Source: Ectocarpus siliculosus
Taxonomy: Eukaryota; Sar; Phaeophyceae; Ectocarpales; Ectocarpaceae
Assembly (NCBI GenBank): GCA_000310025.1
Contig: FN649750.1
Location: 828,723 to 892,722 of the forward strand
Length of the DNA stretch: 64,000 nucleotides
Direction of reading: 5' to 3'
Below the pieces are notes generated by a model that saw nothing but the letters and a program-made list of their open reading frames with translations, was not told where the DNA came from and made no database searches. The position numbers were made by a program, and so were the translations under genes. This document shows, piece by piece, positions 21,078 through 64,000 of the stretch. Numbering within the stretch: the first letter of the stretch is position 1; each line of letters begins with the position of its first letter.

Positions 21078-22975
21078 GTGTGCGATGCAGCCATACGCTA
21101 CATCCTTCTAGGTCAACCTCCCGAGTCACCGCCTGGTTTTCTTGACCACCTTTCGTCACACCGTCCACCTTCGTTTTCGGACATCCGCGAACTGGCACAT
21201 AAAGGCCGGTTGCACGTTGACGACGATGACGTAGTGCTTCTCGATAAGAAGCCCACCACAACCGCTTCTGCCACTTCCACGCACCATGGCGGGCGTGTGG
21301 CACGTCTCCTCAACGACGAACCTATTAGGATTTACGTCCCCATGTTGATGCGCCCATGGATCATGCAGGTCTGTCACGCTAATGCGTCTTGTCATCTTGG
21401 TGCAGCACGTACGCTGTCTATGTTAGAGCGTTTCTACTGGTGGATAGGCATGAGCGTCTGTACCAAATGATGGATTCGCCATTGCCTCAAGTGCCAAGCT
21501 CGTAAAACTTCCCGACAAACGGCCCGGTGGCCCATTTTAAGCTTGCCACTGCCGTCCGGACCTGGAGTGTCCGTGAGTGTCGATCATTTCGGCCCACTGC
21601 CGACTACCCCTAGGGGTAACACGTACATGTTGCTCTTCACCGACCGGTTTAGTCGGCGTGCTGACATGTACGCCGTTACGGCTGCTGAGTTTACCGCTGA
21701 AGGTACTGCAGATATTTTCGTGAATCGGTATATCCCTCTGTGGGGTTGCCCCTTGAGTCTTTTTTCAGACAATGGCACACAATTTTGCTCGAAACTGTCA
21801 CAAGCCGTATACAAACGTCTCGCAGTTCGCAAACTGGCCACCAGTTCGTACCATCCTAATGGAAATGGTGGTGTCGAGCGAGTTAACCACACTATGGCAC
21901 AAATGATTGTCATGGTCGTTAACGAAAGGCAAGATGATTGGGATGTCCATCTCCCTCATGTAGATTGGCGTCTAATAACTCTGTTAGCGCGGCCACCGGT
22001 TTAGCACCTAATGAGGTGCACATCAACTGTTTGCCTCGCCTTCCGATGACTGTCATCGAGCATCCTTATGCTCGTGGTCATCAAAGTTTGGATCGCGACC
22101 ATCTCCAATATTGCGACCTCGCTGCTGATCGCCAACGTCGTGCATACGAGCTAGTACGCGAGCAGCACAAGTTATCCATTTCTCGGATCGAGCGTCGAAA
22201 TTCCGCTCTCTCGGATGCTTTGCACAAGCTTCCGACTTACACCATCGGCGATTGGGTTTGGATCTTTAGTACCGAATCTACCATTCGCTCCGATGTTCGA
22301 TCAGGCACCGACGACAAGGTTCTCAAAGCGAAGTTATCATTGCTTTGGACCGGTCCGTTTAAAGTGTTGGCTGTAGGCCCTGTTCGAAAGCCCCTGATGG
22401 CAGTCCTCTCGCGGCCAAGTTGTTATACTTGGATCTTCCGTCGGACCTGCCGGGCAAAGACTCGAAACGTCGTGTTTCGGTCGCACGCTGCAAGCCATGC
22501 GCTAATCCGCATGACGCTGAGGACCTGCCACGCGCCGGCTGGTCTCACGCAGTATGTTTTAAACAACTATACGACAAAATCTCCTCCGTATCATGTTACC
22601 GAAAATGACGTCTCGACTTCGGTCAAACGTCTCGAGGTGGAACAAATTACTGGTCACCAGTCTGTTCGCGGTCGTGGTGGTGTTATCGCTGTTCTGTATC
22701 AGACACATTGGAAGGGTCTTCTCCGCCCTTCTTGGGAGCGTGAGATGGACCTTCAGCACTCTCGATCGCAGATTCTCCGGTATTGGACGAGTACGCCCGA
22801 TCAACACCGTCAGACGAATCGCCGTTACCGTGCAATGCGTATTGGCGCAGCCGCACGCGAATTGGTACGTGCTAAGGGCGAGAGACATTTGCCTCCGGGT
22901 TACTCCTTTGTCTCCCGCTCAACCTGGGACCGTCGTTTCGCCGATAATCCTCTAACTGTGAGTGCGTTCTTCTAG
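21078..22975 (+). pseudogene. Ty3/gypsy integrase with chromodomain, broken
   Basis: The zinc-binding HHCC module is visible as HANASCH plus CLKC. The catalytic core has the three acidic residues in VDHFG, FSDNGTQF and GGVERVN. A TGA at 21468-21470 interrupts the frame inside the zinc module, and a one-base deletion near 21965 shifts the frame after the catalytic Glu. The C-terminal part (to 22972) has an SH3-like segment around LLWTGPFKVLAVGP and a chromodomain-like segment with QTHWKG and SWEREMDL. It therefore belongs to the chromovirus-type branch of Ty3/gypsy. Because of the stop and the frameshift it cannot make an active enzyme. Confidence 0.88.
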
Positions 22976-38300: not shown

Positions 38301-41300
38301 CTTACGTTACGCAACCTACGGCGCACGCCTGCTGGACACCCGACCCCTACCTAGCTTCACTCATAGTCACGCCTGCTGAGCAAGTGTCGCTTGCTGCTGC
38401 TATGGGGTATACATTTATGGCTCTTGTGGTTCGGATAGCAATCCCGTTTACCGTCTGTTTTATGTTTTTTCTCGTTTTTTCGTGTTGATCTTGTGACCCG
38501 TTCCGTGGTTTGATTCCAGATGGTCCTTTGGTGTTTGGTGGGACGAGGCGGTTACTGCCATGTGCCGACGTTGCACACTAAGGCTTTTCACTCGTCTGAG
38601 GTTGCTTGCTGCCGCCTGTGCATGGGTGGACAGTGTGCACATTGCGGAAGTTGCGCGCGAAAACATGACACCAACTGTCTTCCGCGTCTTGGTCGATTCG
38701 GTACGTTCATGCGTCGTTGCCTAGTGCCGGCCCTGACTTGCTGCCCGTGGTGTTTGCTGGTGTTGTAAGTCGATACTGAATACTGATGGTGTTTGCCAAG
38801 GTTCCGACACCCAGCGCCAATCACATCGTTGTGCATATGCGTGTTGCTTATGTTGTATTTCACTCAACATTTTGCTTTGATTTCGTGATTCCGAACGGCC
38901 AAGCGCTGCATCAAGCACGTTGTTGAGCAATTCGCCTATTTGTCGCTTGTTCGTGATTAAAATAGATGGATCATCGCCAAGTATCGGTGGTACGGCTTCG
39001 TCGGGAACGACACCAGAGATGCCCCCCTCGTGTCCAAGGCCATGATACATGTGAGCATCGTCGAGACTACCGCCCTTTTTTCCGAGGGCTCCGCGGTTTG
39101 TGATTTCGTGGGAGGCGTGATCAGTGGGGGAGTCCGTGGTTGGTGATGTCCCGGGACGCGTGTTCAGGGGGGCTCCGTGGCTAGGGATTTCCTAAGGCAT
39201 GGAATATCCCGCCACGAAATCTTGACACGGCACCCCCCCCCCCCCCTCCTTGGGCTGGAGACCCGTTTTGTTGCTGATGGTCCATTTGGTTCAANNNNNN
39301 NNNNNNNNNNNNNNNNNNNNNNNNNNNNNNNNNNNNNNNNNNNNNNNNNNNNNNNNNNNNNNNNNNNNNNNNNNNNNNNNNNNNNNNNNNNNNNNNNNNN
39401 NNNNNNNNNNNNNNNNNNNNNNNNNNNNNNNNNNNNNNNNNNNNNNNNNNNNNNNNNNNNNNNNNNNNNNNNNNNNNNNNNNNNNNNNNNNNNNNNNNNN
39501 NNNNNNNNNNNNNNNNNNNNNNNNNNNNNNNNNNNNNNNNNNNNNNNNNNNNNNNNNNNNNNNNNNNNNNNNNNNNNNNNNNNNNNNNNNNNNNNNNNNN
39601 NNNNNNNNNNNNNNNNNNNNNNNNNNNNNNNNNNNNNNNNNNNNNNNNNGATCTCCTATCGGCAGCCTTACTTGCATAGTCTGCGTCTGCGAACACCTCC
39701 ATGCTCAACCCTGCTACACTACCCCTCCTGAATGTAATACCCAAGTCACTAGTCCTTACCACATACCCCAAAATACCAAAACCTGCTCTCCAATGAATCT
39801 CTTTGGGAGAGGCACAGTACCGTGCTACCGCTCTCACTGCGTTCGCGATATCTGGCCTCGTTTGCGTTGCCAGCCACATCAATGATCCTATCAGCTCACG
39901 AAAAGGCCTTGATACCACTTATTCATCTTGGTCAAACTCTGAAAGCTTCAACCCTACAGGAAGAGGAATTTCCTTCCCGTACTCTACCCCAAACTCCATC
40001 CCCAACTCTTCAGCGTACGTCTGCTTCGACGTCTTCAAAGTCCCTGCATCCCAATTTTCCAAGAATAACATCTCCTCTACCGCCTGCTCCCTCAGGTTGT
40101 GATCGCTGTTCACAACCAAACATCCTGTGAAAACCCCGAAAATAAAATCCTACTCGTTCAGGCTCGACCTCGTACTCAAAAAGACCAAACACAAAGCCGA
40201 AGCAACACAAACCAAAGCCAAAACAATGAGAACACGAAATAAGAAAAGTCACACCATTGGTCACACGAAGTATTTTTGCCGGCCCATCAACCCCAGCGCT
40301 TTCATCCATCCCTCCTGCCACTGCTTCTTCCCCGCGGTAGCCACCCTCGCCTCTGCCGCGGCCACCCTTTTCTGCTGGCATGGCCGCGGCTCGGGCTTCA
40401 TCAGGTGCCACGTATCCGCCTGGGTGGGGTGGGTGCAGCTGTCTCTCCGGGGGGATTGACTCGGCAGTGCAGGGGAGATTGCGCATCCGAAAGGGAAAGG
40501 CACAGGCAAATCAGTCACCCAAAGCGTCAATTTAGCACGTTGCACTGCTGGGGAGAATACCTTGCAATACGCCCCCTGTTCTGCGCAGCAGTGATCGTTG
40601 TCTTTCGCATTCTGTACGACATCATGGTTACCTAACAAATCGAACGCCAATCTACGACTGAGGTTAATTACTCTTCTTTCGTAAAAGTGACACAACGATT
40701 CTTGCGATTTGTCTGACAAGGTTAATTATTCCTCGGTCACGCAAACAACAATGTTGGATCCATGGTAGAGCTTACACAGCTGTGTTTCTGATCAACAACC
40801 CAACACATCTTCTTACTGGTGTGCAACCACTCCGCTGCTTTCGTGCATACAGTGTTCTGGTACGAAATGGAGATCATCTCCATGTAGTCCTGTCGGTTAC
40901 ACAGACCCCTGACCAAATTTCCAAGTGTATCCCCCTACAACTCCTACCGCTGGACATGCAACAGACTCCTGTTCATAACACGCAACTCATTGTCGGTAGA
41001 GGGTGCAAAGATTCATGACACCTTCGCATATCCCGTTATCGACGTGAACGCAAAAATAATGAGTCGGAGATCAATCTCTGTATTTTAACACAAGAGGGAC
41101 AAAATATTCCCATCAACTTCAAAGCACTCAAGAAGGTATATGCAGCAGCTTGGTTAGGATTCGCTGACACTCTCATCTATTCTTTCAGTTTCTGTGGGTG
41201 ACTGGCAACCTTACGTGGCGTAGTAGCCATACAACCTCGCAGTTTTTGGTGGGTGACTGGCAACCTTGCGTGACGCAATATCAATTTAACCTCGCAGTTT

Positions 41301-53196: not shown

Positions 53197-54195
53197 CGAC
53201 TACGCCCACGATGAAGAGGAAAAGAAGTGTTCCCGCAACGCCGCCCTGACGCTCGCCCGCCGCCTGCCGCCGGTCCGCTGCTTATACGACTCCAACCGCG
53301 ACCAGATGCCGACACGGGCCTCCACGCGGAGCGGCAGGGCAGCGGGTGGGCAAGCAGGGCGAGGTCGGGCGGCGACACCTTCGACACCACGCACGAGGAG
53401 GTCTACCGCGCGATCGGTGGCGAGCTCGACGGCTCGCCCCTCGACGCGCAGCGGATCACGTACTCCCGCGAGGCGTCGAGCGGTATCCTCCTCGCGAGCG
53501 CCAGGGACAGGCACCCGCGGCGACCCGCTGATGAGACTGAGCTCGCTTCTCTCCGCGGGCTGGTGGACGGCCTGAGGGAGGAGCTGCAGCGGAAGCGCGA
53601 TGAGGCTGCCGGCGATCGCCAGCAGCTTCAAGCAACGATCGACGACCTGATCGCCACCCAAGCAGCAGGACCTGGCCTTCCGGGGGGGGGTGCAACTGGT
53701 GGGCACAACCGCCCCACCATCGGCCTCTCGGGCCCCCGCTACACCCAGCGCCGAGGCGGCTAAGGCTACGGCAAAGGATAGAGCGCGGATGTGGGGGGAC
53801 CTCCGCCGGGTAAAAGCGTGGCTCATCCTGGGGTGGCCTCCGGCAGTTTCAAAACTGTCGCAGATGGAGTGGCAATCCTTGCTTCGCAAAGGCGTCCTGG
53901 TGACAGAGAAAGTGGCGGCATCGCTCGACACGCTCGTGGTTACTGCTTCGCCTTCAACTCGTCGTCCGGTTGCCATGATCGTAACTGCCCACCATCCACG
54001 CCCAGAACCCTTCCCACGCTAGGCGCGGAGCGTCCGAAACTCCGGCAACCGGCGCGCGCGGCGTTGGCCACGGCAACGGGGGAGGGCGCGGAGGAGAGGC
54101 GCGCGCCGCTGGCGAGGGCGGCGCGAGACCCAAGGCCGCTGGCTTCTTCACCCACGGGAAAGACAAATAGGGGTGCGGGCTCTCCCGCGTAGCGG
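53197..54195 (+). pseudogene. Gag-like ORF1 of the tyrosine-recombinase element
   Basis: A frame from about 53197 encodes a basic N-terminus, then THEEVYRAIGGEL and a coiled coil (LASLRGLVDGLREELQRKRD). At an eight-G run (53683-53690) the frame shifts. Another frame from 53791 has CFAFNSSSGCHDRNC, a Cys-rich motif like the zinc finger that follows the helical region in such proteins, though the last ligand is not obvious. Frameshifts make it non-functional as read, unless the G-run is an assembly error. Confidence 0.5.
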
Positions 54196-54263
54196 GGGGG
54201 CCTACCTCGGATGGCAGCGCACCTGCGGCTAAATCGAACGGCAGCACGCCGGTCTACACGAGG

Positions 54264-55419
54264 TTGGCTCCAGGGCTATCAGCAGGTTCAGGACCCGGGA
54301 CAGGCAGGACGGGACTTTGTTACCGACGTCTTGGCATGCAGCTCGTCGAGCACTCAGTTGCGTCTTCGTCTAGAAGGACTTACACGTCAGGCTTCAACTC
54401 TTGGTGCACGTTTCGCAGGCTGACGGAGAAGCCCAAGTTCCTAGGGCAACGTGCCGGGGACCTTCATGTGTGGGAGTTGATAGACTTCGTAGCCTGGTGT
54501 TTCGAGTCTGAGGGTAATCTAGCGAGTACAATATCCGGAAAACTCACGGCTGTACAACATTTTCATAGGCTGGAAGCTTCTGTCGAGCTAGACTTGTCGT
54601 CTCCGATGTTGAAATGTGCGCTAAGGGGGATTGCGAGGAACCACGTGGCTGTGGGGACGATACGCCGTGTGCGCCCTGCCTGTGTCTTGGCGTATGCTGC
54701 TGGACGGGGAAAGCGCAAGCCAGAACTGGGGGGAAGGGGGCAGAGTGATGTGGCTGTGTCTGTGCTTGTCCTATCTCTTTATCACACGGTCTGATGAGGT
54801 GTTCGCGAATGATGCGGGCAGGGTGCATGAGGCACACTGTCTTACGAGGGCGGACGTAGCATTGTTTGCTGGCGAGACGCAATTAGTCTTTAGTCACTAT
54901 CGTAGAGCAGACCGTGTCGAAATGAGGTTTAGAGGGCACAAGGCCGATCAAGAGCAGAAAGGAAACATACGGGTTCGTACGCGAGACGAAGTCACCGGAC
55001 CGCAGTCAGGTGTGAGAGCACGCGGCGGCGCGGTGGCTCTTGTGGTGGAGCTGTTATCGTGTCATGCGACGTTGCCTGACTCCGCACCGTTGGCTTCGTA
55101 CCGTAGTGGAAGAGCAGTGAGAGTAGTGAGGTATACTGCTGCCCTCCGTGCAGTCAGAGAAGTGGTAGCGAAGTCGGGGCGTAACCCCCAGGAGTACGCG
55201 TTGCACTCGTTGCGAATTGGAGGCGCGACGGCTCTTGCATCGGGCGGAGACATCGCAGAACGAGTGATTCAGAGAGAAGGGAAGTGGAGGTCGGATGCAT
55301 ACAAGCCGTACGCGCGAAACAATGTAGAGGATTCGCGGCGAGTGTCACGGAAACTTACAGACGGCAGTAGGATCGTATCGAGACAGCCGGGGGAGGGGAC
55401 CGTCTGGGGGAACGGATAG
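54264..55419 (+). pseudogene. Tyrosine recombinase with one frameshift
   Basis: The N-terminal core-binding domain is at 54330-54670 (RRTYTSGFNSWCTF to LKCALRGIARNH). A one-base insertion near 54678 moves the frame, and the catalytic domain continues to the stop at 55417-55419. It contains the first catalytic Arg in TRSDEV, HSLRIGGAT (the HxxR box), a Trp in GKWRSDAY in place of the second His, and a candidate nucleophile Tyr in YKPYAR. This is the layout of eukaryotic tyrosine-recombinase transposons. All catalytic positions are kept, so loss of function is recent or the indel is a sequencing error. Confidence 0.8.
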
Positions 55420-55698: not shown

Positions 55699-55806
55699 AG
55701 GAAGGTTTGTTCGTCGAAGCAGATAGAATAAACTGGTGTTTATTTTGTAACAGTCGAATTAGAATTTGGCTTCATTTTCTACCGGAAACCCAGGGTCACG
55801 GTGTTT
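55699..55806 (+). repeat. Right terminal direct repeat, interrupted by a Ty3 LTR
   Basis: A match to 49913-50020. At 55807 the sequence switches to the LTR of the Ty3-NADAR element, so that element inserted into this repeat. Confidence 0.85.
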
Positions 55807-56106
55807 TGTTAAGGAGTGTGGCTGCTAGCTTAAATAGGGTACATCTTATTGTTGATAGGATGTGGGTCGGTCTCAGGAGGTATACCCTTCAGACACCTAC
55901 CCTCTTAGGATTTTGTCTAGTCTGCGTACCCCCCTGAGGTGAAGTTGGATCCCCACTTCACCTCAGACCATTGCTGATCGTCTCTCAGCAATAACAAGCA
56001 ACTTTCTCATCTCTACGTGATCGTGGACAAGCGTGTCAACGACAGAACCTACCTTCATCTATCTCTAGGAGCAAGCTACCACCCACGGCTTCCCCTCCTT
56101 TAAACT
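55807..56106 (+). repeat. 5' LTR of the Ty3-NADAR retrotransposon
   Basis: It begins TGTTAAGGAG and is followed by a primer-binding site at 56107. A related copy lies at 46274-46573. Three hairpins are visible: 55841-55863, 55935-55965 (11-bp stem) and 55971-55991 (7-bp stem). The 3' end is set by the primer-binding site; the last bases TTTAAACT do not give the usual CA end. Confidence 0.8.
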
Positions 56107-56269: not shown

Positions 56270-59200
56270 ATGCTGGCTTGCGATGCTTTCGCTAAGCGCC
56301 CGCGGGACTGGGACCTTGCGAAGGATACGCGTCTCGGCGGTCATCGCGATGTTGTAGGTGATTTTTCCTACGCTCGCCGCCCCTCCCAAGCTATTTTGTC
56401 TGCATCGGCGGTCCATGAAGTTATTTCGGTGGCGGACACGCTTTGCATGAAGCGACCGGAGTTGCTGTCTTTGTGTAGCGGGACTCGAGATGATAGCATG
56501 CTTCCCGCGTCCGCTACCACTTCTACTGCATTCATGCCGGCGTACCGGCCGATGTCCGCGGATTTCCCTGTGGTGCTCTCCGATTTGACTCCGCTTGTTT
56601 CGACGTGGAGAGCATTGTGTGCACACAAATTGGGTGTCAGCCGCCCCACCAGCCTTCCCTCCATTTTTCGCAATCACATGGAAATTTTTTTTGGAGCATC
56701 ATTCACCCTCAAGGCATTCGAATTGGAAACCTTTCAACAGCGCAAACCCACAGCGGTCTTCGCTCGCACTTCGGCACCCGTTGCGGAGGAACGCCGTGCT
56801 GCTCTGCGTGTGTTTTGGTCGGACAATCTCGTGTCCCCATTTAATACCGGTCCTTTTGTGCTAGCTTCCACTGCTGTGTATGCGTGGAATGGTGTGCTTT
56901 TGGACGCCTTTTCTGCTTGGTTGGATCCGCTTCAACCTCGTGTGCATCAAGCTTTTATCGCCGGGCGTATGCTGTCCTGTGGGTATCTCCGTTTTTCGCA
57001 TGGACCTCGGTTTGCTTCTACCGCGATTACGCCCCGCTTTACTGTTTCCGCTGCAATCGGTTCTGCTGTCGCAACAGCGGTTGGGGGTGACACATCTACT
57101 GTTGCTGGCCGTTCTGCACTTGTAAAAATCGATAGTAGCTGCCCTTCCTCTGGCCCTGTCTTTTTGAAAAAAGAGAACACCATGTCCAGCGGATATGTGG
57201 AACTGATGGACGGCAATGAGGAAATCCTCGATTACGAGGCCGAGGGCGAGCCGTCCACCGCGGAGCTGATTGCAGGGGCCGGGACGGGCGACGAGAGCGA
57301 GTCCACTCCAGGCGCGTCCGCAGCTGATGACCTGAAGTACAACATCGCCACGGCGGATCCGGCGGACCTGGAACAAGCGTACACCGCTGGACGGATCTCC
57401 CTGCGCGACGTGGTCAGGGCAGCTCGTTTGTCTCCTGGTTCCCCCATTTGCGCTCGCCCTTTCTCGCTCCCGCAGGAAGACATGGTGATGCACTTGTCGC
57501 AAGATGAGTTCGCCGCCTTTCAAGAATTGACCGAGATGTGGCACCGCGGTCTGGCTAGCGAGGTAGCGGCGGCGGAAGAGCGGAAGCTGCTGGAGGAGCG
57601 TGAGGCTGCTCTGGCGGATGATGCGAGGAAGCAGGAGGAGGAGCGTCAGGCTGCTCTGGCGGAGGCTGCGAGGAAGCAGGCGAAGGAGCGTGAGGCTGCT
57701 CTGGCGGAAGCTGCGAGGAGGCAGGAGGAGGAGCGTGAGGCTGCTCTGGCGGAGGCTGCGAGGAAGCAGGAGGAGGAGCGCGAGGCTGCTCGGGCTGCTG
57801 CACAGAAGAAAGCGGAACTAGCGGCGCGCGAGGAGTATGTCCGGGCTGCTAGGGCGAAGCAAGGGGCGCTCCGATCACGGCTGGAGGACCTTGGGCACCG
57901 GTCGCAAGCTTCAACTTTGCTTTCGCGACCCGCCCGTCGTCGTGTCGTGCCCCCTCCCACGCCCCAGGCGGCACCGGAAGTGGCTGCTGCTCCCCAGTTT
58001 TCTGTGACGCTGGGTGGGCCGGCCGGGGATGCCGACGGCGCGTCAGACGACGAAGCCGAGGAGTACAGGTTTCACGCAGAAGACACAGCGTTCCTGTCCC
58101 GCCCCCTTTCCACGCCCACAGATGTGATCACCTTCCATGATGCTGACCGAACTAGTGCCCTTTATGCGTGGGCTGGCCTCCAACACATCGTGCGTGACCG
58201 CTGTCCTGACTCTTATACAGACCTTGGTTTTGCACATCTTGTATCGAGTCCGTTCCTCGACCAGCTAGAACCGTCCTTACGACAGAGTGTGTTTCGGTTA
58301 GTGTCTGCTCTCCGTAGGGCTTCCTTCACCGAGGGTCCCCAGGGAACCGCGGTGGCGGTACACAATGGGGGAATTCGGTTGCCGCTAGCTCGTACTGCAA
58401 CCAACGACGATTTTCAGCTTGATCTGCAGCTCCCACAGCAGGATTCTGCAAGCCGTGCGCATGGTTCCGGAGGGACCAAGGACTACAGTCTGTCGGCGGC
58501 TCCTGCCTCCACCAGCCGGAGGAGCCGTTGGGGTGATCAAGCCCCCACGGCCAAGAGCGGGACGGCCGAGCGCACTTCGCGAGGGCCGGGTGTTGAAGAT
58601 GGCGGGCGGGGGTACGCGGAATCTTCGTCCAAGCGTCGACACCGCGAGAGCCGGAGCCGGAGCCGGAGCACCGACCGCCAGCCACGTCACGCACCTTCGT
58701 CTCGGCGTGGTCGCAGCCGGAGCAGCGACCGCCACGGGAGCAACACGCCTTCGCGTAGGCGTAGCCGCAGCCGGAGCCCGACGAGGAGCGGGGGCAACGG
58801 CAGGGCGACCAGCTCGGACAGCGGTCGAGGGGGCAAAGGGCGACGGAAGTCAGGTCGGGGTCGCAGGCAAGTGCAGTATGATCGGTGTGATTTTCGTAGT
58901 TCTGGGCTGTTGGGGGAACGTAAGACTGCCTCAGAAGATGGTTCACTCTGTTCTTCGCCACCGGTTTTGCTCCCCCCCGCTGATGTAGGACCGCCGCCCG
59001 TGTCTACTTTGGCGTTCAAACTTGCCAACATGCAACTTCGTGAACATTCCGCCGCGGTTAAAAGCCATGCCCCTACACACACCGTGGTAGATCAGCCCAC
59101 ATCTTCCTTGCTTTTGGACGAACGTGTTGGTTCACCACGCAATGCTGCATCACACGCCTCGACTTCGGCTTCCCGTACTGAAATGCTGTTGGAACAAGTG

Positions 59201-61042
59201 CTCACTCTCCTGCGCGCGCAAACGCCTGGCCAAGTTGTGGATGCTGCTGCCGACTCGAATGTACCACCTTCTGTGCCCTCGAACGCCCCTAGCATGCCAC
59301 CTTCTGCCCCACCCTTTTCGTCACGGGCGCATTTGGCACCATTGCAAGACCACGCTTCGAGTTCCTCGGGAGTTCGTTCAGGGTACGAGGTTCACGATGA
59401 GGCAGCTGCCAGGGCCACGGCAGTGTCATCGTCATCAGCGCCGGCCGCCCCAGCTCTGCCGCAACAGCCTTTGGTGGTGTCATCAGCGTCGACCGCCCCA
59501 GCTCTGCTACAACAGCCTTTGGTGGTGCCCCCCCCCCTCCCGCGTACGTCTATCCTGATCGATCCTCGCCCGGCGACCGGCCACGTCATGGCGTCACCGG
59601 CCAACGCGACATCGCCGTTGCCTCAGGATGATGCTAGCTTGCCTTTGTCTTCCACGGGGGCGAGGACGAGGCAGGAGGCTTTGGACGCTGCGGACGCCGC
59701 TGCAGCGGAGGCCGACACCATCCGCATTCAAGACAAGATGGACAAGCTGAAGCCGGAACAACTTGATAGTGTCACACGCTTGCCCCTTGGTTCTGATCCT
59801 GATGAATTTGCTCGTTTCGCGTCTAGCTGCAAGGGCGTGGTCACCGAGATCCTCAACAAAAGCGACGTCAAACGCAAGCAGACTTTCGCTTCCTCCACCT
59901 GGGTCGCAGGATGGCTTCCGTTGTTGCGCAAACGTGTTCGTGCTGCTGTCGTTGAAGGTCAAACCACCAACCGTGCCACGCTGGAATTTCTTGATGCCAC
60001 TTTCCAACAGGTAGAAAACCATCTGCGCAAGGAACCGGCCGGGCCCTCGACGTACGCGTTCTTTATCCAGAAATTGGCGGCCGCCTGGGACACTCAAGAC
60101 AAGAGCTCGGGGATCGATCGCCTTCGTAGTTTTGGCGTGTCCACCGGCGAGACGTACGGAGAATACATTCGTCGCTATAAGGCTCTGGCCATGACTGTCA
60201 TGGTTTCTCATCACGCGTTCAAGCCTTCGGATGCACAAGTGCAGATAGCTGTTCGAGACTCCATGTTGAAGCAGTTTCCCGTAGTGTCTGGACAGGTGTA
60301 CAAGGATGAGCAGCTCTCCATGGAAGCCCCTTTTGGGCGACATGCTTCGTGTTTGGACGATATGTGGGATGTGTTGGACAAGCGGGCATTCGCGCACACG
60401 CCGGCGGTACATGGTGACGATTTTTTTTCGGTGTCTTCCACGAATGCTCGGAGTTCGTCTGCTGTTTCGCGTGCTGTAGCTTCTTCGGCGTTGCGGTCGT
60501 CGGTGACCCCTTCGTGGAGTCCAGGTTCTTCGGCTGCGGTGATGAGTGTTGACCCTCTACCTTATGATGATCGAGACCCTTTTCTGTTGCACTACAGCGA
60601 CTGGCCGCTGCAAGGACACTTTCCAGAGGTATACAACGTCGCTAGTGAGATGGCTCTAACCAAGAATGATCCGCCATTGTTCACCCCCTTGGTCTCGGCT
60701 GAAGACCGCCGCAACGCGCTTCGGCTGTACAAGGGCAAGTGCCTCAACTGCTTAGGGGAAGACCACTCCTTCAAATCTTGTACTCGTGGGTTCATTAACG
60801 CCACAGGCCTGCTTAACAATGATATCAAGCTCTGCATGGAAAAAGATCCCACACTTTGGAGTCGGTGGAAAAAGCGCATGACCTCGTATAGACGACCTAC
60901 AGGACGCAACCCACCCCGTGCTCACTCCTCGGGACGCGCCCGCCGTTCATCTGACACATCGGACATGAAACAGTCCTCGCACACAGAATCCTCATCGGAG
61001 ACTTCCACTTCGGCCAAGAGGGGCTGGAAGGGTAAGAAATGA
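56270..61042 (+). CDS. Gag polyprotein of the Ty3-NADAR element, 1590 residues
   Basis: The start is the first ATG after the predicted leader acceptor; an internal ATG at 57182 (residue 305) has a better context and could be the true start. Residues 1-304 match nothing I recognise. About 430-540 is a charged coiled coil with five 15-residue repeats like EREAALAEAARKQEE. About 788-870 is RS-rich (RSRSRSTDR, RRRSRSRSPTR). A long Ser/Pro/Ala linker follows. About 1150-1385 is a helical capsid-like region (Gag of Ty3/gypsy type), and residues 1491-1504 form a CX2CX4HX4C zinc knuckle (CLNCLGEDHSFKSC). A basic Ser-rich tail ends at TGA. Ty3 Gag is usually a few hundred residues, so this one is several times larger. 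Gag assembles the particle and packages RNA; the extra regions are unassigned. Confidence 0.85.
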   Translation: MLACDAFAKRPRDWDLAKDTRLGGHRDVVGDFSYARRPSQAILSASAVHEVISVADTLCMKRPELLSLCSGTRDDSMLPASATTSTAFMPAYRPMSADFPVVLSDLTPLVSTWRALCAHKLGVSRPTSLPSIFRNHMEIFFGASFTLKAFELETFQQRKPTAVFARTSAPVAEERRAALRVFWSDNLVSPFNTGPFVLASTAVYAWNGVLLDAFSAWLDPLQPRVHQAFIAGRMLSCGYLRFSHGPRFASTAITPRFTVSAAIGSAVATAVGGDTSTVAGRSALVKIDSSCPSSGPVFLKKENTMSSGYVELMDGNEEILDYEAEGEPSTAELIAGAGTGDESESTPGASAADDLKYNIATADPADLEQAYTAGRISLRDVVRAARLSPGSPICARPFSLPQEDMVMHLSQDEFAAFQELTEMWHRGLASEVAAAEERKLLEEREAALADDARKQEEERQAALAEAARKQAKEREAALAEAARRQEEEREAALAEAARKQEEEREAARAAAQKKAELAAREEYVRAARAKQGALRSRLEDLGHRSQASTLLSRPARRRVVPPPTPQAAPEVAAAPQFSVTLGGPAGDADGASDDEAEEYRFHAEDTAFLSRPLSTPTDVITFHDADRTSALYAWAGLQHIVRDRCPDSYTDLGFAHLVSSPFLDQLEPSLRQSVFRLVSALRRASFTEGPQGTAVAVHNGGIRLPLARTATNDDFQLDLQLPQQDSASRAHGSGGTKDYSLSAAPASTSRRSRWGDQAPTAKSGTAERTSRGPGVEDGGRGYAESSSKRRHRESRSRSRSTDRQPRHAPSSRRGRSRSSDRHGSNTPSRRRSRSRSPTRSGGNGRATSSDSGRGGKGRRKSGRGRRQVQYDRCDFRSSGLLGERKTASEDGSLCSSPPVLLPPADVGPPPVSTLAFKLANMQLREHSAAVKSHAPTHTVVDQPTSSLLLDERVGSPRNAASHASTSASRTEMLLEQVLTLLRAQTPGQVVDAAADSNVPPSVPSNAPSMPPSAPPFSSRAHLAPLQDHASSSSGVRSGYEVHDEAAARATAVSSSSAPAAPALPQQPLVVSSASTAPALLQQPLVVPPPLPRTSILIDPRPATGHVMASPANATSPLPQDDASLPLSSTGARTRQEALDAADAAAAEADTIRIQDKMDKLKPEQLDSVTRLPLGSDPDEFARFASSCKGVVTEILNKSDVKRKQTFASSTWVAGWLPLLRKRVRAAVVEGQTTNRATLEFLDATFQQVENHLRKEPAGPSTYAFFIQKLAAAWDTQDKSSGIDRLRSFGVSTGETYGEYIRRYKALAMTVMVSHHAFKPSDAQVQIAVRDSMLKQFPVVSGQVYKDEQLSMEAPFGRHASCLDDMWDVLDKRAFAHTPAVHGDDFFSVSSTNARSSSAVSRAVASSALRSSVTPSWSPGSSAAVMSVDPLPYDDRDPFLLHYSDWPLQGHFPEVYNVASEMALTKNDPPLFTPLVSAEDRRNALRLYKGKCLNCLGEDHSFKSCTRGFINATGLLNNDIKLCMEKDPTLWSRWKKRMTSYRRPTGRNPPRAHSSGRARRSSDTSDMKQSSHTESSSETSTSAKRGWKGKK

Positions 61043-64000
61043 CATGCCGATGGCGGAGTTCAGCCGGTACTACCGTCACTAGCAACCACCGTGCACCCTT
61101 TTGGAGTCTCCCAGGATGTTCGTGTACAGCCTACTTCTTTGGATACTCCCCACGCCCCCAAATCGCATCTAGTTTCTCGGCCCGCCTCCTCGTCACCCAC
61201 CTCATCGTCTGCTGGTATTGGACATGACAAACCCACTCCGGCACAACCTTTGTGGTGTGGGCGACAGGGAGGTAAGACGTCGAGTGGTTCACCCCTGCTC
61301 ACCTCGCCGTCTCGGGTTACAGAAGGAACAAGAACCTCGTCTACTACTGTTCGCCAAGACTCTCCTGGTATTGTCAGCCGGGCCTCTTCTCGGATAGCAC
61401 ACGAGCCTTCTTCTACACTCGTCGGGGACCCCGTCGATTCTCCTTCTCTTTCGCAGCTTTCGTTGTCTTCGACCGTCCGCTGCCCCCGTGTGGCAGCACC
61501 TGATACGAATGCGTCTTCCTCTGCTGCCCACAACGTGCTGACTGCACCACTGCCATCGGGATCGGATGGTAGTGCCCACCGTTCTGTGGAAGGTTCGGCT
61601 CCTTTGTCACGGGGGAGTAGTCCAGAGCGCCCTGCGTCCATTCACACATATCCGTCTGCCGCAGGAAAGACTTCTCTTAACGAACAGGTCTCTAATAGCC
61701 GAATGGCCTCTGCTAACATTGACCTCGCCGGAGCCGCCGCCCGTAGGCCGCCCTCCGGATCATGGACCGGAGCGACTTCGCCCGCTCCTCCCTCGCTTTC
61801 TGGGTCCTCCCCGTCGGAGATGAGGACCCGTCCGCTTGACCCACCCCCGCCCGTGCCTGGTGCCCGCTCTTTGCCTCTGCGCCCTGCACCGGCTCCGCCG
61901 TTTGATGACAAATGCGAGTACGCTTCGGATGACGTCCTCCTCTTCTGGAAACCTCCGTCTGTGTTCTCGCAATGGACTCCCTCGGCTTTTGACGTACTGG
62001 GGGTACGTTATTCATGTGGTGAGCAATTTATGATGTCTGAAAAAGCGAAGTTGTTTGGGGATATGACGTCGTATGAAAAAATCATGGCTGCACCAGATCC
62101 TAAGACACACAAGTACTTGGGTCGTAACGTCCGTCCTTTTGACTATGCTGAATGGGAGCGTCGTCGAGAAGAGATCGTGCTTACGGGGTCGTATGCCAAA
62201 TTCGCTCAAAACCGCGACATGAAACAACATCTACTGGAGACGGGTACCCGCCTCCTTGCGGAAGCCAGCCCCTTCGATCGTGTTTGGGGTATCGGCATGT
62301 CTGCATGCTTTCCGGAGGCTAGCGTTTCATCCAAGTGGGCGTCTAGCGGTAAAAACTTGTTGGGAAAAGCTTTGATGGAAGTTCGGCGCCTTTTGCGTGA
62401 TCATCCCCTGTCTGGCGAAGCTCTCCCCGCCTCCACTTCTCCCGCACCTCCCATTTCGCAGCCTCCTCCACATGGCCGTAGACGCATCCACGAGGTTGCT
62501 ACCGCGGCCGGTTCGTCGTCACGGGAGGACCGGGGTGAAGACCCAGCCTGTCTCCATTTGGACGCTCCGGGGGACCATGCTCCTGGTGTTCATCTGGTGG
62601 CCTCGACCTCCGCTTGTGCAGACCAACCTCCTCTTCTGGAACACGGGCCCGATCTGGTCGGCGGCACGCTCCTGTTGGACTCGGACTCTTACACCACCCG
62701 GGTCCTGCTGCATGGAGGACCTACAGCCACTTCTCAACTGGCGCGAGTGGCGCTGCTGGACTCTGGATCTCCTGCGTCTTTTGTGTCCGACTCCGTGGTC
62801 ACCGCCATGATAGCTGCTGGAGCCTTGACAGCTGGCAGCGTTCGTGTTTCGCCCTCTCGTCGTTGGGGTGGGTTTGGTGATGGACCCGCCCTTGTGACCA
62901 CTCAGTCAGTTCGTCTCACCGTTAATTTTCTTCATGGAGCTCGAGCTACCGCTTCGTTGGCGGTCTGGGCCTGCGTTGTTCCAGATGCCGCCATGGGGCA
63001 CGCCGTGCTTCTGGGTCGCGATAGCTGGATGCGGTTCAACTCTCGAGTGTTCACCACCCTCCCCCACCCTGGACCGGACGGCCGGGTTATGGGCGAGCTC
63101 ACGCTCTCTCCACGTTTCACCGCTGGCGCGTGTGTTTACGCTACGCACGACGACGCTCCTGCCTCTTCGTTTCACCTCAAATATGCAGGGAGCTCGGGCA
63201 TTTCCTTGGGGCCGGAGCCGGCCCTTGTTGAGGTGGACCTCGTCCGTTCTTCGGGCATGCCTGCGCTGATCGGCGAATATCTGGTATCGTTCCGACCTGA
63301 AGTGGGTGCACTTTCGTCCCCCGATGCATTTGTTTCCAATGGTCTTCAGCGTATTCCCCTTGCAGGTTGTGCCGAATTGGAGCCGGGCGACGTTATTGGC
63401 GTGTCTGCTGCACCGCTATTACGAGTACCGGTAGAAACCCTGAAGGCGGCTCCATCTTCGACTCCCACCGCCCCCCCGTCCTCTACATCACCGCATCGGG
63501 TCAACGCCGTTGGCCCCAAGTCCGGGACTCGCCGCTCTCCGGACCCAGCCTCCGCCCCGCCTCCTCCGAAGCCGCCTCCACAAGAACTGCTTGACCGCTT
63601 CTCCGAGGCCCAGCGCTCCAGTTTTCTGCGATTGTGGACTAGGCTGCCTGCACATATGCACGACATCGCTTTCGATCTACACAACCCGGGATGGACACCG
63701 GGGGCTATTGATCGTTTGGCCGACGCCCTTGTTGAGTATTCCGACGTGTTCTCTACTTCGAAAACCGATTTTGGTTCCTGCACCGTCATGCCATTCACTC
63801 TTTCTGTCCCCGCAGGGACGAAGCCCGTCGCATCACGCCCGTATCGTATTAACCCGTTAATGCAGAAGAAAGTGGATGCCGTCTTGGACCAGTATTTGGC
63901 GGCAGGGCTCATTCAGCATTCCACTTCTCCCTGGGCTTCTCCCCTGGTCGTCATCCCCAAGAAGGACGGATCGGTTCGCATCACCGTCAACTCCAAACGA
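61043..64000 (+). CDS. Pol polyprotein with NADAR domain, protease and RT (runs off the window)
   Basis: Directly after the Gag UGA the same frame is open for 986 codons to the window end. In order: a Ser/Pro-rich linker (61043-61900); a NADAR domain (61901-62409); a second linker; an aspartic protease with ALLDSGSPASFVS at about 62750 and HAVLLGRDSW near 63000; another linker; and the start of a Ty3-type reverse transcriptase with FTLSVPAGTKPVASRPYR, STSPWASPLVVIPKKDGS and ITVNSKR. RNase H and integrase are expected beyond 64000. Pol has no obvious start codon of its own, so expression probably depends on reading through the UGA. The absence of any other stop over 7.7 kb of Gag-Pol argues for a recently active element. 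Confidence 0.88.
61901..62409 (+). other. NADAR (YbiA-like) domain within Pol
   Basis: Conserved blocks of the family appear in order: SVFSQWTPSAF, the Glu-containing YSCGEQFMMSEKAKLFGD, HKYLGRNVRPFD, WERRREEIVLTGSYAKFAQN, LLETGTRLLAEASPFDRVWG with IGM following, and SGKNLLGKALMEVRRLL. The domain is about 165 residues, near the usual family size, and nothing appears missing. Characterised relatives hydrolyse N-glycosidic bonds: bacterial and plant members act on early riboflavin intermediates, and others remove ADP-ribose from guanine bases in DNA as partners of DarT-type toxins. Here it lies between Gag and protease, so it should be carried in the particle. Its substrate is unknown. Confidence 0.88.
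62640..63065 (+). other. Retropepsin-like aspartic protease domain
   Basis: The catalytic Asp-Ser-Gly is encoded at 62759-62767 in LLDSGSPASFVS, followed by a strand-rich region and the second conserved element AVLLGRD. It acts as a dimer to cut Gag-Pol. DSG rather than DTG is common in some Ty3 elements. Confidence 0.75.
63590..64000 (+). other. Reverse transcriptase N-terminus (Ty3/gypsy)
   Basis: YSDVFSTSKTDFG leads into the fingers subdomain with RPYRINPLMQKKVDAVLDQY and SPWASPLVVIPKKDGS. The polymerase Asp motifs are beyond the window. Confidence 0.85.

Follow-up and report, generated by a model that had tools for sequence, protein, structure and literature searches.

Introduction

Gypsy retrotransposons that carry a NADAR domain have already been published for Ectocarpus sp. 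7 (Gypsy-12_Ec32 and its relatives; Genome Biol, 29 Sep 2025, PMC12477816), and a NADAR-retrotransposon fusion in Ectocarpus is therefore already known and not new in kind. Here we analyse such an element, a long terminal repeat (LTR) retrotransposon of the Ty3/Gypsy group with NADAR in its Pol frame, in a 64,000-nucleotide stretch of Ectocarpus siliculosus DNA (the window; assembly GCA_000310025.1, contig FN649750.1, here C25, positions 828,723 to 892,722 of the forward strand). We are nearly certain of the anatomy of this element and of its membership among NADAR-bearing Gypsy elements. It resembles the Gypsy-12_Ec32 lineage in being a brown-algal NADAR-Gypsy, a likeness drawn from the published description and not from the consensus sequence, and differs in the relatives found for the domain: these were mainly bacterial in blastp outside Ectocarpus (PMC12477816), whereas brown-algal host genes are closest among the cellular sequences compared here. 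In the passages of PMC12477816 consulted we found no statement on selection on NADAR, on a host NADAR gene or on the TGA codon discussed below; the signs of selection are among the additions of this analysis to the published description of the fusion. Among the matches listed from the open-licence literature, no further work on NADAR in retrotransposons or Gypsy elements appeared beyond PMC12477816, and a search of the same literature returned nothing on DUF1768 with transposable elements.

NADARs are also found in Tx1 LINE ORF1 proteins of Crassostrea gigas (PMC12477816), which belong to non-LTR retrotransposons and presumably represent a separate capture, and in positive-strand RNA viruses of animals, where NADAR tends to share a polyprotein with the polymerase and has been proposed to act on host macromolecular ADP-ribosylation (PMC9503650); both are likened to the window element by description alone. 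NADARs, including an oomycete one, hydrolyse guanine-ADP-ribose on DNA (PMC11543638), and the physiological role of the eukaryotic proteins was called unclear in 2024 (PMC11125620). That role becomes testable in a retroelement lineage where the domain retains its active-site residues and is constrained much as reverse transcriptase (RT) is.

The NADAR domain and its active-site residues

The domain, 169 aa long and of YbiA type, lies at 61901..62407 of the window on the forward strand. Its PF08719 match (156.7 bits) covers profile positions 2-163 of 163, and structural alignment finds the NADAR fold, with 32% identity to the NADAR of Phytophthora nicotianae (8bau; PMC11543638) and 27% to E. 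coli YbiA (2b3w), both of them stand-alone proteins. The active-site residues of the P. nicotianae enzyme were taken from PMC11543638, with the numbering offset set so that all 13 letters named there fit. Relative to that enzyme the element domain has Phe in place of Y84 and Tyr in place of D86. The residue at the E125 position, which is Asp in the BC4488 type and His in the phage type (PMC11543638), is Glu in the window copy, in 34/34 loci of the same genome and in 33/33 retroelement-type NADARs of a wider set, in which the E43 equivalent is invariant too. The catalytic residue at this position also separates the element from the DarT1-NADAR toxin-antitoxin system, where it is Asp. Among the 34 loci, E43, K50, E125, D130 and W133 are kept throughout and all nine mapped active-site residues are present in 32, the remaining two being apparently out of frame there; counted as distinct copies, 30/32 keep all nine (two copies are present twice among the 34).

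Searches of the 189.5 Mb genome returned at least 150 NADAR matches (150 of 230 scored). RT loci were sampled from this Gypsy lineage alone (100 matches, 99 after merging two pieces of one locus; 99 of 615 candidates scored), and their linkage to NADAR was judged from the 150 matches and 8 further positions. At 89/99 of these RT loci a same-strand NADAR match lies no more than 2.6 kb upstream, and the other 10 have none in that range; conversely, 86/150 NADAR matches have one of the 99 RT loci downstream. The domain is present in many copies.

Selection and co-divergence with reverse transcriptase

Selection was assessed within families of closely related copies: family A (12 copies picked for long open frames, the window copy included), B1 (4 copies) and B2 (3 copies). 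In the site counts each difference from a natural copy is entered once, with a transition bias of 2 assumed and an expected nonsynonymous share of 0.75. The family A NADAR shows 18 synonymous and 13 nonsynonymous differences (p 7.5e-5), a ratio that Fisher tests do not distinguish from those of RT (17:13; p 1.0) and protease (22:13; p 0.80), with RNase H at 8:12 (p 0.14) and the low-complexity linker upstream of NADAR at 11:21 (p 0.37). In B1 the counts are 6:3 for NADAR (p 0.011) and 14:5 for RT. A Fisher comparison of NADAR with the upstream linker gives p 0.079 for family A and p 0.008 for B1. When pairwise dN/dS is pooled within family A, it runs from 0.15 for protease and 0.16 for NADAR through 0.23 for RT and 0.32 for RNase H to 0.73 for the upstream linker, and is 0.12 for NADAR in B1. 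Between-family dN/dS was set aside, synonymous sites being saturated for most pairs and domains.

Divergence between the four families (A, B1, B2 and B3) follows the same pattern: NADAR is 57-77% identical, RT 60-82% and the linkers 20-59% (the upstream linker 27-41%). Across 10 elements NADAR is 47-83% identical, and its identity tracks that of RT (r 0.80 over 45 pairs, against 0.82 for protease and RT; the pairs are not independent). Because NADAR is constrained and diverges with RT, it was most likely already part of Pol when these families split, was passed down with it and has been maintained.

The first-pass annotation, made from the letters of the window, had proposed a full-length NADAR domain with its family blocks, and had named a poor profile match, missing residues or an unconstrained single copy as what would speak against it. 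What we find is a significant match over the whole domain, the residues at their mapped positions, many copies and, in A and B1, the two families for which sites were counted, purifying selection. The same fusion, which it had proposed to look for elsewhere, turns up in the relatives described next, and whether NADAR-retroelement fusions had been described, which it could not tell, is answered by PMC12477816.

Relatives and origin of the domain

Named fusion proteins occur in Ectocarpus sp. CCAP 1310/34, with element proteins up to 95% identical over 35% of the query. A search with profiles for NADAR, protease and the start of RT returned 54 proteins (7994 candidates scored), and proteins combining NADAR with RT are also present in EukProt entry P0146 and ENA records P0145, P0147 and P0148, at 44-65% identity. 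In four further proteins (P0130, P0133, P0135, P0187) NADAR is combined with PF03747, which we take to be ADP-ribosylglycohydrolase, and/or PF01661 (Macro). In the genome of the window a macrodomain search gave one exon match (E 1.3e-7).

The genome also contains a host NADAR gene (C24:2125206-2127003, minus strand), in which the domain match falls in four exon pieces. It is likely the orthologue of E. fasciculatus P0004 and Pylaiella P0006, its domain being 85% and 73% identical to theirs, respectively. An N-terminal Cys-rich segment, PGCSRPC...YCGVTH, is common to the host gene (in C24:2124501-2127500) and these two proteins.

In the trees, element NADARs group with the brown-algal host genes in a single clade that sits within the bacterial NADARs. 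This clade received support of 99/96 in a selection of 41 rows out of 147, 97/87 with 54 rows (6/29 new rows excluded as near-copies, partial or non-element), 100/98 with 82 rows (37 viral NADARs, none of them inside; 9 element near-copies excluded) and 98 in a quick tree of all 147 rows. In these trees P0001 was labelled an element by its position alone, and several short proteins by a NADAR-protease profile match alone. A single clade of all element NADARs, for which the first-pass annotation had proposed a tree, is not rejected (approximately unbiased test, p-AU 0.40 with 41 rows and 0.23 with 54 rows). The closest cellular relatives among the sequences compared are brown-algal host genes, split by introns in this genome, and not bacterial ones. 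This bears on the possible horizontal transfer from bacteria suggested in PMC12477816, where nearly all blastp hits outside Ectocarpus were bacterial.

Both directions of exchange between element and host are possible: a spliced host mRNA may have been captured by the element, or the element domain may have been domesticated by the host. Domestication, with introns gained later, is a serious contender that we place a little short of even odds. The open branching order within the shared clade leaves room for it and the sampled elements are more diverse than the three host sequences, while the all-element clade that the trees do not reject suits a single capture, and the host gene has a Cys-rich segment of its own and an exon-split domain. 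This question of origin is separate from that of function.

The gag-pol junction

Pol continues in the frame of Gag and is separated from it by a single TGA (61040..61042), followed by C; the uninterrupted Gag-Pol frame of the first-pass annotation is thereby corrected. Of 32 loci examined at this junction, 5 did not span the site, and TGA-C is kept in all of the other 27, which represent four families and 25 distinct copies, the query copies accounting for three. A conserved SQD(V/A)R block follows in frame within about 30 codons of the TGA in all four families (61109-61126 in the window). In families A, B1 and B3 no ATG intervenes; B2, counting against readthrough, has an in-frame ATG in that interval. 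The first ATG of the frame in the window copy (61703) lies 660 nt downstream of the stop, beyond the SQD(V/A)R block, which favours readthrough. Pol is probably made by readthrough of the TGA after gag, a reading we retain for the conserved TGA-C and the in-frame block after it, and not for any RNA structure: the 70 nt past the TGA fold no better than shuffled sequences in 4/4 families (z 0.98, -0.36, -0.78, -0.40), and an alignment fold of four sequences gave weak stems.

Possible functions of the element NADAR

Readthrough of the TGA would bring NADAR into the particle together with protease and RT. Once packaged, it would most likely act as a guanine-ADP-ribose hydrolase, stripping ADP-ribose from the RNA of the element or from its new cDNA, and this activity may counter an ADP-ribosyltransferase of the host or its environment. 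By analogy with the RNA-virus polyproteins, a Pol-linked NADAR would travel with RT and clean the template RNA or cDNA. We give this explanation as a whole, from NADAR-Gypsy element to counter-defence, a probability of roughly 0.45; its enzymatic part, hydrolysis of guanine-ADP-ribose on the element's own nucleic acid, is a tentative suggestion, drawn from the activity of characterised NADARs. A bolder version, which we consider rather unlikely, would have the whole brown-algal Gypsy lineage depend on a particle-delivered hydrolase of this kind, made by TGA readthrough, with brown algae or their microbes ADP-ribosylating foreign RNA or cDNA and the enzyme passed between lineage and host gene, one repair enzyme serving both sides.

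Several observations weigh against the packaged hydrolase. No obvious guanine-modifying partner is apparent, since six-frame searches of the genome, which do not bridge introns and can miss intron-split genes, gave no match to DarT (PF14487), the partner in the DarT1-NADAR system, and just four weak PARP exon matches (best E 4.5e-6). Residue conservation is incomplete: in the wider set R93 is kept in just 20/33 (replaced by Cys in 12 and by Gly in 1), D86 is variable and 18/33 retain the full set of nine residues, and the nine are not significantly enriched in invariant columns (2/9, with 13/165 columns invariant; p 0.15). The B2 NADAR runs counter to the trend, its few differences, totalled across pairs, being 12 nonsynonymous against 2 synonymous, and constraint is lacking in the B1 protease (2 synonymous against 8 nonsynonymous; p 0.79), a result from which we take small families to be noisy.

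An alternative that we regard as unlikely is that NADAR degrades small ADP-ribose derivatives, such as cyclic or linear NAD-derived alarm signals of host defence, and not nucleic-acid adducts. This has been argued for phage NADARs and, in one place, for viral NADARs generally (PMC9503650), and would fit the lack of a DarT match in the six-frame search; a low-copy, particle-bound Pol enzyme would seem badly placed against a diffusible signal. Less probable again is a part in processing element RNA outside any defence context, as proposed for Ectocarpus in PMC12477816 (NAD-linked RNA ends or RNA repair would be examples of our own): NADARs are inactive on phosphate-end ADP-ribosylated RNA (PMC11833690), and a six-frame search of the genome gave no match to the KptA family (PF01885). 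The domain might instead bind ADP-ribose or nucleic acid, or assist Pol assembly, without catalysis. Fold and constraint alone do not show catalysis, and R93 and D86 are variable, yet the two glutamates equivalent to E43 and E125 are invariant in the wider set, and we hold a purely binding role to be improbable. That NADAR is a chance-captured passenger with no selected role is already disfavoured and very improbable, the few, nonsynonymous-leaning B2 counts being set against constraint that matches RT and protease in family A, the synonymous excess in B1, and a domain kept across elements while the upstream linker has drifted between families.

Structure of the element and neighbouring sequences

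The packaged-hydrolase proposal concerns an element that runs on the forward strand from window position 55807 to C25:898318 (13,790 bp), 5.6 kb beyond the window end. Its 5' LTR (55807..56104; 298 bp, TGTTAAGG...CCTTTAAA) is preceded by the target site duplication GTTT at 55803-55806, and the 3' LTR (C25:898021-898318) is followed by GTTT. The LTRs are identical at 297/298 positions, in keeping with the recent insertion supposed by the first-pass annotation. The Gag open reading frame (56270..61042; start codon uncertain) ends at the TGA and contains what by eye is a CCHC zinc knuckle (60740-60781), with no Pfam match. Pol opens with the low-complexity linker (61043..61900) that precedes NADAR; a second such linker (62408..62650), a retropepsin-like region (62651..63430; LLDSGSP at 62753-62773 by eye, no Pfam match) and the start of RT (63611..64000) follow, all three with approximate bounds. 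RT, RNase H, a putative integrase and a C-terminal region continue past the window to about C25:896739. RT and RNase H share one frame (PF00078 1.4e-21; PF17917 4.5e-28). For integrase the window copy gives just a weak rve_3 match (E 0.083), and the relatives P0145 and P0147 carry PF00665. The C-terminus of Pol (about 3300-4000 of L010, the stretch carrying the continuation of the element beyond the window) has, by eye, a chromo-like and then a Tudor-like segment (WYKxxDGLWWxG), as do P0145 and P0146, with no Pfam match for either stretch; chromo and Tudor domains belong to different Gypsy lineages according to PMC12477816.

Part of the LTR and leader recurs in inverted orientation, at 94.7% identity, 2.4 kb past the 3' LTR (L010 7978-8482). 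Elsewhere in the window a decayed fragment (21938-22975, forward strand) resembles by eye the C-terminal integrase and chromo-like portion of elements of this Gypsy lineage, and a fragment on the reverse strand (39181-39918) was labelled by eye as Copia-like RT/RNase H. Beside the 5' LTR, open reading frames at 53690-55419 (forward strand; ALHSLRIGGATALASGG) look tyrosine-recombinase-like by eye, and we take them to belong perhaps to a DIRS/Ngaro element or a Crypton.
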